Below are positions 14,954 to 25,578 of a stretch of 39,076 nucleotides of DNA, piece after piece. Position numbers and translations under genes: made by a program. Every line of letters begins with the position of its first letter. The first letter of the stretch is position 1. The notes below the pieces were generated by a model, which was not told the DNA's origin, did no database searches, and worked only from the letters and a program-made list of their open reading frames with translations. This DNA comes from Patescibacteria group bacterium (GTDB taxonomy: Bacteria; Patescibacteriota; Minisyncoccia; UBA6257; JAKLIH01): contig JAKLIH010000007.1 of NCBI GenBank assembly GCA_022709715.1, positions 1-39,076 on the forward strand, in the 5' to 3' direction.

Positions 14954-16759
14954 TTATTTTAATTTATTAAGAATATCGCAAATTGTATTTAATTCATTAA
15001 TGAGCTCGATTGATCGAATTGAGTCATTTTGGTTTTCAGCGTTTTTTATTTCATTTTGAATATTATTGATTTTATTTTTATAATATTCATGTTTCAATAA
15101 TTTTATAAAATTATTTATTTCGGCTATAATGATTTCATCACTTTGTTTTAACAAATCATCATATTTGATATTATTAATATATAAATTATCAATAATTTCT
15201 TTATTTTGAGGATCAATATTTTGATCATTAATGACTTCGATACCCTTCTCTTTTATTAAAAGCAAAATATCTTGAAATTTAAAATTAAAAAATTCAATAT
15301 TGTCTAAAATAATATTTTTTAACATTAATGGTTTTTGAATAAAAGTGGACAAAATGACTTCCGATAATGTTTCGGATTTGGTTTTTAATAACGATGAATG
15401 GTCACTATCAAAATTGTTTTGTTTGGGTTTTAAATAAATATCTTCGGTTTCTTCGGGGTTAATTTTTTTAAAGGTTTCTTCAATAGCGCTTAAATTTATG
15501 TCTAGTATGTCGGCTAGTTTATTTAAATAGTGAGATATTTGAATCAAATCTTTTTCTCATTTTAATTTTGGCAAAAAATAATTTAAAAATTCATTTTTAC
15601 CAGCAATATTATTGGTATTAAACATATTTAAGCCATGATCAATATAAAAATCCATGACTGGTAGACTTTGGTCGATTTTTTCGGGTAATTTATTAGGTAA
15701 AATATTAACAAAATCCGAAATGTCTTTAGCTTCAGTGATATTTAAAATTTTAATTTGAAAGCCAAGAGATAGGGCTAATTTTATATTTCGTTCAGTGGCC
15801 ATTTTTCCAGCTTCATCATTGTCGTAAGCAAGAATGATTTTATCGCAAATACGTTTAAGTAAAGTTAGTTGATCAATAGTTAAAGCTGTACCTAAACTGG
15901 CAACTATATTTTTTATACTATCTAAATAAGCGGATAAAAAATCCATAGTACCTTCTACTATTACAGCTTCGTTTTGTTGAGCGATATATTTTTTGGTAAC
16001 ATTTAAACCATAAAGTATTTTTCCTTTTTCATATACTTTGGTTTGAGGTGAATTGACATATTTGCCAGTTTCGTCAATATTTTTTATGGTTTTAAGAGGC
16101 GATGATCCTTCAAAAATTCTGCCAGTGAAAGCTACTGGTTCATTTGAATTATTAAAAATTGGAAACATAATGCGAGATCGAAAACGATCATATAAATTGT
16201 TGCCTGATGGTTTACTGGTGTTTTGAATGAATAAACCAGTTTCAAATAAGTCTTTTGAGGTGTAACCTTTATCAATTAAATAATTTAAAGCTTCATTTCA
16301 ATTATCATTGCTAAAACCAATTTTAAATTCATTAATGATTTCTTCAGTTAAACCGCGTTTAATTAAATAATCTTTAACATTGGAATTTTTATTTAAATTG
16401 GTTTTATATAGTTCAATTACATCTGAAAAAATATTATAAATGGTTTTGTTTTGAGAACTTACTTGATTATCAAACCGAGGCAATTTAACACCGGCTTTAT
16501 CAGCTAAAATTTTTAAAGCGGTAATAAAATCAACATTTTCAATATTCATAACAAATGTAAATATATCGCCAGTTTTTAAACAACCAAAACAATGTCAAAT
16601 TTGACGTTGAGGAGATACAAAAAAAGACGGTGTTTTTTCATTATGAAAGGGACAGCAAGCTTTGTAATTAGTGCCAGCTTTTTGCAGTTGAATATAATTA
16701 GATAAAACATCAACGATGTTTAATTTGGATTTTATTTCTTCTTTGGCGTCAAATTCCAT
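14954..16759 (-). CDS. dnaG: DNA primase
   Basis: The 601-residue primase makes RNA primers for replication. It has the CHC2 zinc finger near residues 38-60 ([15 protein letters not shown], then QIWHCFGC with UGA as Trp55), the primase core ([29 protein letters not shown]), the TOPRIM domain with Glu269 (VIVEGTMDF) and Asp313/Asp315 (LAYDNDEAG), and an Ile/Asn-rich C-terminal helical domain for helicase contact. UGA also encodes Trp in NDNWNEALNY and KLKWEKDL. The start is ATG at 16757-16759, 2 bases after the dgkA stop, and rpoD follows after 10 bases. Confidence 0.96.
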
Positions 16760-16761
16760 AG

Positions 16762-17148
16762 TTAATATTTAAAATAAATTTGAATTAAAGAAAAAATTTT
16801 GGGTATAAATATAATACCGCCAATAATGCCAGCCCCAATAGAAACGATGGCCACGCCACCAGCAATTAAATCTTTAATATTTCTAACTTTGGCATTAATT
16901 TCGGGATGAAATAAATCTAAAAAATGTTCTAAACTAGTATTAAATAATTCTAAAGAAATAACAGCTGTAATTAACATGATTACAGCTATTCATTCACCAA
17001 AAGATATTTTAAAATAAAAACCACAAGCGACAACAACAATGCTAATTAAAGTCATTAAAGTCAAATTTTGTTCTTTACCAAAACAAAATCTTATTCCGTC
17101 TCAAGCATATTTTCAACTCATGAAAAAAGATTTTAGGAAGCGATACAT
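16762..17148 (-). CDS. dgkA: Diacylglycerol kinase, prokaryotic DgkA/undecaprenol kinase family
   Basis: The 128-residue integral membrane kinase has three helices. Family marks are [22 protein letters not shown] at the N-terminus, [17 protein letters not shown] (the ExxNTAIE motif, catalytic Glu region) and [18 protein letters not shown] (KDxAAGAV). In Gram-positive-like lineages this family phosphorylates undecaprenol, feeding the lipid carrier used by the sugar transferase at the end of the same operon. Three UGA codons are Trp (MSW, YAW, GEW). The start is ATG at 17148, 22 bases downstream of the tRNA-Ser(UGA). Confidence 0.92.
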
Positions 17149-17170
17149 TAATTGTTGTTTATTTTTTAAG

Positions 17171-17257
17171 CGGAGAGGGCGAGATTCGAACTCGCGATAC
17201 CCTTTCGGATATAACAGTTTTCAAGACTGTCTCCTTCAACCACTCAGACACCTCTCC
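17171..17257 (-). tRNA. tRNA-Ser(UGA anticodon, reads UCA)
   Basis: The 87-base class II tRNA has acceptor GGAGAGG pairing with CCTCTCC, anticodon loop CTTGAAA with anticodon TGA, a long variable arm closed by CCGAAAGG, T-arm GCGAG-TTCGAAT-CTCGC, and discriminator G. CCA is not encoded (GCTTA follows). It sits 22 bases upstream of dgkA on the same strand. Broken copies of its 5' half lie at 17301-17330 and 17433-17464. The anticodon name should not be confused with the recoded UGA codon. Confidence 0.95.
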
Positions 17258-17300
17258 ACTTAAAAAATAATTGATTATTGCCTATTTATTTAGAATTTGC

Positions 17301-17330
17301 TTCAGAGTCTCCTTCAACTCTCCACATTAA
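17301..17330 (-). pseudogene. Broken copy A of the tRNA-Ser(UGA) 5' half
   Basis: Read on the minus strand, this is GTGGAGAG joined directly to GTTGAAGGAGAC and then TCTGAA. The intact tRNA-Ser(UGA) has GTGGAGAG, then GTGTCTGAGTG, then GTTGAAGGAGAC. The copy thus lacks the 11-base D-arm segment and stops in the anticodon stem. No 3' half follows, so it cannot be a functional tRNA. Confidence 0.6.
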
Positions 17331-17408
17331 CTTTGCGCTAGAATCTATAATCTATATTAAAATAATAAATATTTAATGCGATTATTTATTTTAATGTATC
17401 AAGTCGAT

Positions 17409-17453
17409 AGTAAAGTTAGTGTGGGGACTATCGCACTCAGACACTACTTTACT
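17409..17453. other. Long hairpin with an alternative pairing
   Basis: AGTAAAGTTAGTGT (17409-17422) pairs with ACACTACTTTACT (17441-17453) with a single bulged T, an 18-base loop between. A competing 7-base pairing, CGATAGT (17405-17411) with ACTATCG (17427-17433), uses part of the same stem and loop. The two folds exclude each other. The region also contains broken tRNA copy B. Confidence 0.6.
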
Positions 17454-17464
17454 TAAAAAATAAT
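17433..17464 (-). pseudogene. Broken copy B of the tRNA-Ser(UGA) 5' end with its flank
   Basis: The plus-strand block CACTCAGACAC, seven divergent bases, then ACTTAAAAAATAAT matches the 5' part of tRNA-Ser(UGA) plus 14 bases of its upstream flank (17241-17271). The identical flank shows duplication of a segment rather than chance similarity. The acceptor strand has decayed (TACTTT for CTCTCC), and a strong hairpin has formed with 17409-17422. Confidence 0.6.
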
Positions 17465-17472
17465 TTAGTTAG

Positions 17473-17501
17473 ACTTTATAAATTAAAAATCCCCTTGTCA
17501 A
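17473..17501 (-). promoter_or_regulatory. Candidate promoter reading toward the broken copies and tRNA-Ser(UGA)
   Basis: A perfect TTGACA (17496-17501, minus strand) is followed after 17 bases by TAAAGT (17473-17478) or after 15 bases by TATAAA (17475-17480). Transcription would start near 17466 and run through hairpin 17409-17453, both broken tRNA copies and tRNA-Ser(UGA), possibly on into dgkA-dnaG-rpoD. Confidence 0.45.
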
Positions 17502-17744
17502 ATATTATTAAAAGTGGTTGTTTAATAATAAATTATCGCGATAAAACAGTCATTTTATAGCCGCTTTATGTGATTTAAGAGTAAGGTTATTATACTAAAT
17601 ATGTAATCAAAAGTCAATAGGATAATAAATTAAAAATCAAAAATTAAAAATAAAAAAATAACATTAAAACAAAAGTAAAATAATAAAGTAATTTTATGTC
17701 TATGTTGTAAATGATAAATAAATATGTTAAATTATTAATATATT
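17502..17744. other. Gene-free AT-rich spacer with hairpins
   Basis: No gene seen. TATTATTAAA and TTTAATAATA form a 10-base perfect stem around AGTGGTTG (about 17503-17530), followed closely by the 12-base palindrome TTATCGCGATAA. Bases 17630-17690 are A-rich low-complexity words (ATTAAAAATCAAAAATTAAA). The stems could belong to a small structured RNA or mark divergent transcription; no family was recognised. Confidence 0.4.
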
Positions 17745-17785
17745 GGAGAGATCGCATAGTGGTCGAGTATGAAGCTTGTTACCAA
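17745..17785 (+). pseudogene. tRNA-like 5' half
   Basis: GGAGAGA-TC followed by GCATAGTGGTCGAGTATG looks like an acceptor strand plus D-arm with the GG of the D-loop, then AAGCTTG like the start of an anticodon stem. No matching anticodon 3' stem, T-arm or acceptor follows before an AT-rich hairpin (CAATTTG/CAAATTG, 17783-17813). Its GGAGAGA can pair with TCTCTCC at 17969-17975 in the 3' half beyond the intact tRNA-Ser(GGA). It is most likely a decayed tRNA. Confidence 0.5.
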
Positions 17786-17829
17786 TTTGTTTATTAAAAA
17801 TAAATACAAATTGCAATCCCTTTTATAGC

Positions 17830-17917
17830 GGAAAGGTGCAGGAGTGGTTTAACTGGCAGTCCTGGAAAGACTGTGTATCGAAAGGTACCGCGAGTTCGAA
17901 TCTCGCCCTTTCCGCCA
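17830..17917 (+). tRNA. tRNA-Ser(GGA)
   Basis: The 88-base class II tRNA includes an encoded CCA. It has acceptor GGAAAGG with CCTTTCC, anticodon stem CAGTC/GACTG around loop CTGGAAA (anticodon GGA), a long variable arm with CGAAAG loop, T-arm GCGAG-TTCGAAT-CTCGC and discriminator G. It is the only RNA gene on the plus strand and is flanked on both sides by tRNA-Ser-like half sequences. Short protein-like frames in this area are tRNA shadows. Confidence 0.96.
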
Positions 17918-17924
17918 TAGAGAT

Positions 17925-17977
17925 GGGAGAAAGCGTGTATACCGAAAGGTATCGAGGGTTCGAATCCCTCTCTCCGC
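17925..17977 (+). pseudogene. tRNA-Ser-like 3' half
   Basis: The segment reads AAGCGTG (anticodon 3' stem), the variable arm TACCGAAAGGTA, T-arm GAGGG-TTCGAAT-CCCTC, then TCTCC-G. The D-arm and 5' anticodon strand are missing: GGGAGA is joined directly to AAGCGTG. The acceptor is two bases short unless it shares bases with the T-stem. It may be an internally deleted tandem copy, or the 3' part of a tRNA whose 5' part is at 17745. Confidence 0.55.
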
Positions 17978-18106
17978 AAATTAGCAAAATCAGGGTTTTG
18001 AAGGCTTTTGTCCTCAAAATCCAGATTGGGTAATTTAACCTATGCTTAAAAAATGTTGTTATATAGCTAACAATTATTTTTAAAATTTAATTTTTTATAT
18101 TAATAA
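17978..18106. other. Spacer after the tRNA cluster
   Basis: The 129 bases hold no gene. The first part contains AAAATCAGGGTTTTGAAGGC followed by TTTTGTCCTCAAAATCCAG, with weak internal complementarity; the rest is AT-rich. No clear terminator stem. Confidence 0.35.
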
Positions 18107-18520
18107 TTACCAACCACCCATCGTGCAATTATCATCTACAACTTGTTGAAGGCCCTTATCATTGCCAAAAGTTTGGTCAATGGTGTCTCAATTCATAGTT
18201 CCCTTAGGGAATAAACAATTAAGATTAACAGTGCCGTTGATTTTTCTTTGAAAATGACATTTATCATTTTCAATGCCCAAAATAATTATTTCAATAGCTG
18301 TTCCATCGGTACCAATTAATTTTCCACTAACTGGCAAACAATTATTCATACGATCCATAAAACAGGATGGATTTTCCATGGTGCCACAATCTAGCATTTC
18401 ATTAGATGGGATTTGAGTGGTTGTGGTGGTAGTGATATCTCCCTTCTTGTTATTAAACAAAAAGAAACCAATAACAACAACCAAAACTATTACAATAATA
18501 TATATAATAATATTTTTCAT
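18107..18520 (-). CDS. Small membrane-anchored extracellular protein of unknown function
   Basis: The 137-residue protein starts MKNIIIYIIVIVLVVVIGFFLF, a single N-terminal membrane helix, then a Thr-rich linker (ITTTTTTQ) and a Cys-containing outer domain (EMLDCGTMENPSCFMDRMNNCLP, KCHFQRKINGTVNLNCLF, DDNCTMGGW) with five or six Cys that could form disulfides. I do not recognise the domain. UGA encodes Trp in MNWDTIDQ, while the last codon before the stop is UGG. It lies 56 bases upstream of htpX in transcription order reversed (htpX is transcribed first), separated from it by the terminator at 18562-18589, so it is probably its own unit. Confidence 0.75.
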
Positions 18521-18561
18521 GATTTTAAAATTAATATTTTTTAAAATATTCGACCTTTATT

Positions 18562-18589
18562 AAAAATATCCTAAAACTAGGATATTTTT
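18562..18589 (-). terminator. Rho-independent terminator of the htpX unit
   Basis: ATATCCTA (18566-18573) and TAGGATAT (18578-18585) form a perfect 8-base stem with a 4-base loop, extended by A/T pairs on both sides. On the minus strand it is followed by a T-run, and it includes the htpX TAG stop. The symmetry allows action in both directions. Confidence 0.75.
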
Positions 18590-19491
18590 TTATTTATATC
18601 AATTTGAGTTAAAGCTAAAATGCGTTCTTGAATGGGGGGATGAGTTAACCAAATTTTATTAAATCAAGTTGTTTTTTGCTTAGCTGGATCAGCAATATAT
18701 AAATTTCGTGTATAATCGTTGATTTTAGCCATTGGCTTTGGATAATTGGATATTTTTTGTAGAGCTGATATTAAACCATCTGGATAGCGGGTTAGTAAAG
18801 CGGCCGAAGAGTCAGCCATGAATTCCCTTTTACGAGAAATGGCTAGTTGAATTAAAGTTGCAATAATTGGTGAAAAAATAGCTACACCAATGAAAGCCAA
18901 CAACATAATGGTTCCGCCGATACCCGATCGATCATCATCTTTTGATCGGTTACTACCAAAATTACCAACTCGCAGGACTATATTTGATAATCAAGTGATA
19001 GCAGTTGCTAATATAACAACTAAACTGGCTATTAAAATATCATAATTTTTTATGTGGGATAGTTCATGGGCAATAACCGATTCCAGCTCGGTTTTGTTTA
19101 AAACTTGAAGAAGACCGGATGTAACACAAATAATTGAATGTTTAGGATTTCGGCCAGTAGCAAAAGCATTGGGAGATTCATCATTAATAATATAAATTTT
19201 TGGCATTGGCAGTCCGCTGGTAATACAAAGATTTTCTACTAAATGATATAAAGCTTGATTGTCATCATGTTTTATTAATTTGGCATTTGACATGGACAAA
19301 ATAATTTTGTCGGAAAATCAATAACTGACGATTGATGACCCTAAAGCATAAATTAAAGCTAAATAGATATAGGCTTCGTTTTTTGTGTAATAATAAATAC
19401 AATAACCGAAAACACCAAAGACAATTATAAAAATTGCCATTAATAAATAGGTCTTAATGATATTGTTGTAAACATTATTGTATAAATTCAT
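18577..19491 (-). CDS. htpX: HtpX-family membrane zinc metalloprotease
   Basis: The 304-residue M48 protease is involved in membrane-protein quality control. It has N-terminal helices (YLLMAIFIIVFGVFGYCI and YLALIYALGSSIVSYWF), SGLPMPKIYIINDESPNAFATGRNPKHS, the zinc site VIAHELSHIKNYD (His142, Glu143, His146), two further helices, and the third ligand region RKREFMADSSAALLTRYPDGL. The C-terminus WLTHPPIQERILAL is typical. Three UGA codons are Trp. The stop is TAG, inside the terminator hairpin. It follows lemA by 18 bases; lemA-htpX pairs are frequent in CPR and other bacteria. Confidence 0.95.
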
Positions 19492-19509
19492 AAGGCCAAA
19501 TATTAAATA

Positions 19510-20049
19510 TTAAAATTTAACGGTTACATTTTTGGCTTCTTCCGCTGAAATTTCTAACAATAGTCTTCGTTGATAGTTAAACAATTTAGCAAAAATATTG
19601 GTAGGAATAGATTCGATTAAAATATTATAATCTTTAGCAACGTTGTTATAAAAACGACGAGAAGCTTGAATTTTGTTTTCGGTATCGACTAATTCAGTTT
19701 GCAGGGCTAAAAAGTTTTGATTGGCTTTTAATTCTGGATAATTTTCAAAAGAAACTAAAATATTGGAAATATTTTTTGATATTTCTTGATTAATTTTATC
19801 GCTCTCTTTAAAATCAGAAGTGGCTAAGGCTTGAGAACGGAGTTGGGTAATTTTTTCTAATACTTCTTTTTCATGGCTCACGTAACCTTTAACAGTCTCG
19901 ACTAAATTAGGTATTAAATCAAAACGACGTTTTAATTGAACATTAATATCGGCGCTGGCTTCATCAACATGATTTTTGGCGCGAATTAATTTATTGTAAA
20001 TACCAACGACAATTATTACTAGGCCGATTAAAATGAAATATATATACAT
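19510..20049 (-). CDS. lemA: LemA family protein
   Basis: The 179-residue protein has an N-terminal membrane helix (YFILIGLVIIVVGIYNKLI) followed by the family block RAKNHVDEASADINVQLKRRFDLIPNLVETVKGYVSHEKEVLEKITQLR and, near the end, ASRRFYNNVAKDYN and FAKLFNY. LemA proteins are four-helix-bundle membrane proteins of unclear function, commonly paired with HtpX. There is no Trp codon. It is transcribed ahead of htpX. Confidence 0.95.
   Translation of the reverse strand: MYIYFILIGLVIIVVGIYNKLIRAKNHVDEASADINVQLKRRFDLIPNLVETVKGYVSHEKEVLEKITQLRSQALATSDFKESDKINQEISKNISNILVSFENYPELKANQNFLALQTELVDTENKIQASRRFYNNVAKDYNILIESIPTNIFAKLFNYQRRLLLEISAEEAKNVTVKF

Positions 20050-21936: not shown

Positions 21937-25578
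<3,642 letters not shown>

Follow-up and report, generated by a model that had tools for sequence, protein, structure and literature searches.

Small palindromic or miniature inverted-repeat transposable element (MITE)-like repeats, such as the Rickettsia palindromic elements, are short, non-coding, hairpin-forming sequences that are dispersed in genomes and also found inside genes. Elements of the IS200/IS605 group possess hairpin ends, generate no target duplication and use one fixed tetra- or pentanucleotide target on their left, and the attC sites of integrons have the core GTTRRRY, cut at G|TT. Here we describe a 39,076-nt stretch of Patescibacteria DNA (JAKLIH010000007.1, one contig of a 107-contig, 900-kb assembly; hereafter the window), in which a 150-nt insert (17779-17928) made of a hairpin, a stem and a complete tRNA-Ser(GGA), with no other gene, lies between the halves of another tRNA-Ser(GGA). 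We consider it probable, at roughly four chances in five, that the outer gene is dead and was broken in its anticodon by a small, non-autonomous, two-hairpin mobile DNA element carrying a working tRNA-Ser(GGA). Such an element resembles the Rickettsia palindromic elements and MITEs in the traits listed above and differs from them in its preference for tRNA anticodon and T-loops and in a cargo tRNA that matches the broken gene. With IS200/IS605 derivatives it shares the end hairpins and the lack of target duplication, but its left target is not one fixed short word and the Y1 transposase is only weakly associated with it. Nor does it conform to attC, its left end reading TTCCCG in 65 of 81 rows (copies caught by a regular expression in the fetched loci) and following G, A, C or T.

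The closest concept is the tRNA-dependent lysogeny of mycobacteriophages (Guerrero-Bustamante and Hatfull 2024, PMC10865867), where the invader supplies a tRNA of the same isotype and attachment sites commonly lie at the anticodon loop. The likeness is that the target tRNA is broken and not rebuilt, a matching anticodon being supplied instead. As described there, the invader is a temperate phage with a tyrosine integrase, whereas the element discussed here is roughly 150-180 bp long, consists of two hairpins with a tRNA as its only gene, and enters many tRNA species in either orientation. The idea of a supplied isoacceptor is thus already established in mycobacteriophages (PMC10865867), and an integrase-free insert of 150 nt that affects many tRNAs in both orientations would be a distinct variant of it. 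In Caldiarchaeum, mobile DNA has been proposed to break the tRNA-Thr(GGU) gene and leave fragments, in a case that involves a 1.8-kb sequence with a predicted recombinase and is linked to intron gain (PMC3293823); that case is archaeal and, unlike the element here, its abstract mentions no matching tRNA as hairpin cargo. Our literature search, with most subscription journals and bioRxiv outside its coverage, brought up no published Patescibacteria case of one tRNA gene lying inside another.

The initial annotation of this locus had described tRNA-like halves around an intact tRNA-Ser(GGA), both of which we verified, and had proposed as one explanation that a tRNA gene was split by the insertion of another. 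This explanation is borne out, as relatives carry the gene whole and the junction is exact. Comparison with those relatives shows that 17745-17778 and 17929-17976 together represent a single tRNA-Ser(GGA) gene in which the break separates anticodon position 34 from 35; when rejoined, the loop reads TTGGAAA with the anticodon GGA. Joined at 17778|17929, the halves match six contiguous tRNA-Ser(GGA) genes at 71-74 of 79-82 aligned positions. In one genome (G004) the BLAST matches to the two halves are 11 nt apart and ARAGORN calls the gene a complete tRNA-Ser(GGA), as it also does for contiguous genes of the outer type in other families. The same arrangement was to be sought in relatives, and it is present in G002, a separate assembly from the same genus as the window's genome (to which G001 also belongs). 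The window and G002 represent one event, and the insertion would be older than their split, the outer gene of the window having later lost two bases of its acceptor and T-stems.

Decay of the outer gene, which the initial annotation had favoured, is supported in the window by this loss (CCCTCTCTCTCC in G002, CCCTCTCTCC in the window), because of which its acceptor stem and T-stem are not both complete, and by ARAGORN, which does not recognise the rejoined halves as a tRNA. The reported matching 7-base acceptor strands hold only in part: the 3' strand TCTCTCC is present, but owing to the 2-nt loss its TC (17969-17970) consists of bases that also close the T-stem. Similarly, the anticodon stem is incomplete, as had been noted, yet it is not without matches, since, with G-U counted, three of its five pairs form in the window and four in G002. 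Between these two genomes the acceptor strand and D-arm of the 5' half agree at 23 of 24 bases and its last 10 bases at only 6, and the 3' half agrees at 48 of 48 bases apart from the deletion. Elsewhere, the two genomes differ at 1 of the 88 positions of the carried tRNA and 5 of the 44 of the left hairpin, and in the flanks at 19 of 96 aligned positions upstream and 22 of 74 downstream.

The carried tRNA represents a second lineage, being identical at 84 of 88 positions to the tRNA-Ser(GGA) of a genome from another family (G048) and at only 61 of 81 to its own shell. It is the sole tRNA-Ser(GGA) that our searches detected in the assembly and the only tRNA that ARAGORN detects between the halves, and the broken gene is rebuilt at neither junction. 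Local tandem duplication as its source was ruled out by the 66-79% identity over aligned bases between carried and outer tRNAs in the nine pairs whose outer gene ARAGORN still calls with the carried anticodon. Among 42 outer genes from nested copies, rejoined by script, 30 are not recognised by ARAGORN.

By its conserved ends, hairpin and junctions, the insert is a member of a widespread family of palindromic elements. The general plan is TTCCCGATTT-hairpin-AAATCGCAATCCCG, followed by a second stem that is closed by CGGGA and, in the tRNA-carrying form, has the complete tRNA at its tip. In an alignment of 42 left hairpins (a set that overlaps the 42 nested copies without being identical to it), TTCCCGATTT and the hairpin are followed by AAATCGCAATCCC, and all 42 retain the lower 8 pairs, three of which show compensatory changes. 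The second stem begins after AATCCCG; short copies cap it with a loop of a few bases or with a small hairpin, and in nested copies the acceptor stem of the tRNA is continuous with it. The right ends read CGGGA (55), CGGGG (9) or TGGGA (3), with seven rarer forms found once each, and several of them are uncertain. In nested copies they lie 105-112 nt after the CCC for 25 of the 26 Ser copies, with L117 at 126 nt, and 94-95 nt after it for 7 Val copies. When the variable parts of the right-stem strands of 30 forward nested copies, which are not fully independent, were paired with their own partners, the summed energy was -81.3 kcal/mol against a permuted mean of -26.2 (standard deviation 7.0), and 0 of 10000 permutations reached the observed value. 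Searches of Rfam over 16000-20000 of the window (E up to 1) gave only tRNA, tRNA-Sec, tmRNA, a plastid untranslated region model on tRNA arms and mir-3613, leaving the element unmatched, and at gathering scores eight loci gave tRNA only, with no intron family and no match to the element. The plastid psbL-rps4 matches on the tRNA arms were taken as trnS look-alikes.

A pattern with fixed spacing retrieved the element in 22 of the 244 genomes of the order (2 of 244 for the reversed-pattern control), and without the spacing in 30 (control 0). With a covariance model of the left hairpin, matches rose to 68 of these 244 genomes; the model also matched 58 of 383 genomes in a sample of the class, 13 of which are members of the order already counted, and 5 of 286 in a sample of the phylum, namely two from the order and three from beyond the class. 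It finds one copy in the window's own genome. Nested copies with a readable right end number 42, from 35 genomes and, by our own tally, 19 families, and in two genomes of other families (G057 and G005) the nested insert starts and ends like that of the window. Contexts were fetched for part of the covariance-model matches, and the regular expression misses divergent copies (for example L118); the second row for L171 is an artefact, which leaves 80 of the 81. ARAGORN places a tRNA within -160 to +330 of 63 of these 80 copies. Since BLAST, or a pattern that demanded a tRNA-sized gap, had supplied 22 of the 80, the association is best judged on the remaining 58, where the count is 43, or 24 of 36 for copies first met through the model.

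Beyond anything claimed initially, the anticodon of the carried tRNA is nearly always that of the split gene. In 36 of 42 nested copies the carried and broken genes have anticodon and coding strand in common, T33 and the carried anticodon being read across the junction once the flanks are rejoined; 5000 label shuffles gave a mean of 6.8 and a maximum of 16. The matches comprise Ser GGA, TGA, CGA and GCT, Val TAC, Cys GCA, Gly CCC, Thr TGT, Ala CGC and Arg GCG; in the window, both the carried and the broken anticodon are GGA. Junctions are altered or uncertain in four of the misses (L107, L117, L121 and L140). Another miss, L120, is a T-loop insertion in which the rejoined outer gene reads CGA, the same as the carried tRNA, and L230 has a left flank resembling an anticodon loop and a right flank resembling a T-loop. 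Conversely, L115 was scored as a match through T-loop letters; it is a T-loop insertion as well, and its rejoined outer gene also reads CGA like the carried tRNA. The element is reversed relative to the tRNAs in 9 of the 42 copies, and in all nine the match lies on the strand of the carried tRNA. By our own reading, the cut falls at 34|35 or 35|36 according to the anticodon, and for Ser TGA and Ser CGA reversing the element does not shift it. Left flanks vary and are loosely alike (TTG, TTA, TTC, ATG, GTT), and 12 copies, including one in tpiA, have the exact junction TTG|GAA.

The history that we favour is one in which the element inserts into the loops of tRNA stem-loops and breaks the target gene, the complete tRNA in its second hairpin supplying a working tRNA-Ser(GGA), so that the cell would survive. 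The element would move as DNA with the tRNA as cargo, through an enzyme that acts in trans and prefers the loops of tRNA stem-loops, and the carried tRNA would be read from the promoter of the broken gene. The anticodon match would then arise from selection, an essential single-copy tRNA being losable only if the insertion brings the same anticodon.

Several observations weigh against this history. No mobilising enzyme was found, and the Y1 transposase (PF01797) is weakly associated, being present in 27 of 68 element genomes versus 43 of 176 others in the order (p = 0.026, uncorrected for phylogeny). A survey of the junctions of the copies revealed no target-site duplication, no duplicated core at the two junctions and no strict target motif, and 17 of the 80 copies are without an ARAGORN tRNA in the interval given above. 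In the right stem, the 3' strands of other copies pair as well as the copy's own in a median of 28% of cases. Rejoined outer genes are still called by ARAGORN in 12 of 42 cases, 9 of them with the carried anticodon, and that of G002 is still called tRNA-Ser(gga). Furthermore, the 3' half is unchanged between the window and G002 (48/48) while the flanks diverge (77 of 96 positions the same upstream and 52 of 74 downstream), which makes it over-conserved for a dead gene; this identity may be due to chance, residual function or exchange. The evidence as a whole is comparative and comes from draft genomes with copies that are not all independent, and it is from this that we infer movement.

A related but unlikely reading is that a selfish tRNA gene in a double-hairpin cassette homes to the cognate anticodon loop and replaces it repeatedly, making the match a targeting rule and not only a product of selection. 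Were this so, targeting would rely on the anticodon-loop sequence common to both genes, or on the tRNA, and tRNA genes would turn over by invasion and not by descent. The insert could instead be what remains of a prophage or island that entered the anticodon loop by tRNA-dependent integration, brought its own tRNA-Ser(GGA) and later lost all but its ends and the tRNA by deletion, a scenario for which the same-isotype tRNA shown for mycobacteriophages (PMC10865867) is a precedent. We regard it as quite improbable, given the near-uniform length and single hairpin design across families, unexpected from independent deletions, and the fact that no full-length form was seen. One 62-nt hairpin query (blastn, E up to 1) had no phage or plasmid match, which for so short a query is weak evidence, and the hairpin pattern led to four loci on viral contigs, none with a tRNA nearby (one tRNA-Arg is more than 2 kb away). 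Inspected by eye, these four look like chance matches in coding DNA without a full set of element ends, although L170 shows an inverted repeat after the hairpin, where the element would have one. Equally improbable in our estimation is that the outer shell has been retained for a function as RNA, such as that of a processing scaffold for the carried tRNA: the unchanged 48 bases of its 3' half and the acceptor strands of the shells in G057 and G005, which by their sequence can still pair, would fit such a role, but 30 of 42 rejoined outer genes are unrecognised, several contain further insertions and the window copy has lost two bases.

An intron or a split tRNA, the outer tRNA-Ser(GGA) being spliced and the second tRNA lodged in the intron, would account for a cut in the anticodon loop, the usual site of tRNA introns, for the conservation of the outer halves between the window and G002 (whose rejoined gene is still called a tRNA) and for a fold of 17745-17977, carried tRNA included, that is stabler than all 200 shuffles. 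Splicing would be unnecessary, given the intact tRNA-Ser(GGA); intact tRNA-Ser genes with the anticodons TGA, GGA, CGA and GCT are all present in the genome. Moreover, no Rfam intron family matched, the window copy has its 2-nt deletion in the acceptor/T-stem, and the insert also occurs inside the protein gene tpiA. We reject this explanation, which the initial annotation had entertained, as very unlikely, because most outer genes are unrecognised on rejoining (30/42) and the element occurs in both orientations (reversed in 9/42). Of specific intron types, group I found no support in Rfam, and an archaeal-type bulge-helix-bulge intron, judged by eye only, was dropped given the reversed copies and tpiA. 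The halves are not a missing tRNA-Ser(GCU) either, an intact one being present at C1:95679-95766. Finally, two tRNA genes truncated independently and placed side by side by chance, another of the initial proposals, would be in keeping with how degenerate the halves look when read alone. This is scarcely credible: chance is excluded because G002 shares the arrangement and other families have uninterrupted tRNA-Ser(GGA) genes of this type, and the 34|35 junction and its TTG|GAA counterparts are exact.

The element is also found outside this nested configuration. Near the start of tpiA in G080 it interrupts ATGCCAAAACTGATCATTGTAAATTG|GAAACTGAATCC and is followed by a complete tpiA with different codons, and in G171 and G172, which belong to one genus, a reversed element splits tpiA beside an intact tpiA. 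In all three loci (two from one genus) the break is in a Trp codon, TG|G, and the intact tpiA adjoins it. At L145, L166 and L231 a short element splits a tRNA and the tRNA with the matching anticodon lies just downstream, not inside; L147 and L288 are candidate further loci of this kind with uncertain right ends. Serial 3' halves at one locus (L122, L126 and L150) suggest repeated invasions. Short elements at GAATG| accompany an intact minus-strand tRNA-Ala(CGC) at L133, L142, L149, L151, L154, L171, L172, L173 and L279, in a stereotyped tRNA-Ala version of the same event, with an ill-defined junction, in which the near end of the tRNA is 70-94 nt ahead of the final CCC of the hairpin. At L303 (G759:C1) and L249 (G178:C25), element hairpins are located within 920-nt and 1055-nt repeats that flank small open reading frames (ORFs), share the flank GAAAAACTTG|...|AAAATTGTC and have the look of a cassette array. 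Outer halves at L108, L110, L111, L114 and L298 contain further palindromic inserts in the D-loop or T-loop (e.g. CCTGCCTGCCGGCAGGCAGG); several families of palindromes may thus favour tRNA loops as insertion sites.

Table 1. Features of the nested tRNA-Ser(GGA) locus and its neighbour (window coordinates)
Feature	Position	Strand	Basis or remark
5' half of outer tRNA-Ser(GGA): GGAGAGA acceptor strand, D-arm, anticodon arm to G34	17745..17778	+	Resembles contiguous relatives
Left hairpin (TTACCAATTTGTTTATTAAAAATAAATACAAATTGCAATCCC)	17779..17820	+	Alignment of 42 left hairpins; covariance model match 1.8e-9
5' strand of long right stem (TCCCTTTTATAGC), prolonging the acceptor stem of the carried tRNA	17817..17829	+	Permutation test, fold
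Carried intact tRNA-Ser(GGA)	17830..17917	+	84/88 same as tRNA-Ser(GGA) of G048
3' strand of right stem, finishing in the right end GGGA of the element	17918..17928	+	Right-end survey
3' half of outer tRNA-Ser(GGA): from G35, variable arm, T-arm, acceptor strand with 2-nt deletion, discriminator G	17929..17976	+	Comparison with G002
Intact tRNA-Ser(TGA)	17170..17257	-	Neighbour outside the element; marks the locus as a tRNA-Ser cluster

This cluster is flanked by putative dgkA/dnaG genes and by a small ORF next to an htpX-like gene, the names being read from translations. A second, distinct palindromic element with the inverted repeat CCCCACACTAACTTTAC ... GTAAAGTTAGTGTGGGG is present on the minus strand at 17307-17464, where it splits the D-loop region of dead tRNA-Ser(TGA) copies adjoining the intact tRNA-Ser(TGA). 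Remnants of two such interrupted tRNA-Ser(TGA) copies stand in tandem at L088 1-430 (UR.bin204), one of them with an extra palindrome in the T-loop. The window's genome further contains three related odd tRNA-like genes (L049, G000:C1:34819-35099), which score 58, 49 and 28 bits against Rfam tRNA; one has the stop anticodon TTA according to ARAGORN and another is without a full anticodon. In the same genome the TGA codon stands for Trp (window 21937-25578 and other ORFs), with 10 in-frame TGA codons in rpoC, and a tRNA with the anticodon TCA (labelled SeC by ARAGORN) adjoins tRNA-Trp(CCA) at G000:C20:18597. A limited literature search on this point turned up nothing.

Taken at the strength given above, the nested locus suggests that an essential tRNA gene present in one copy is open to capture by an element only about twice its size, the replacement arriving in the same step. 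This would offer a possible route for the foreign replacement of tRNA genes in reduced genomes. It also calls for caution in annotation, since tRNA fragments adjoining a complete tRNA in such genomes can be scars of an element, and it provides a defined motif with which the enzyme that moves the element may be sought.
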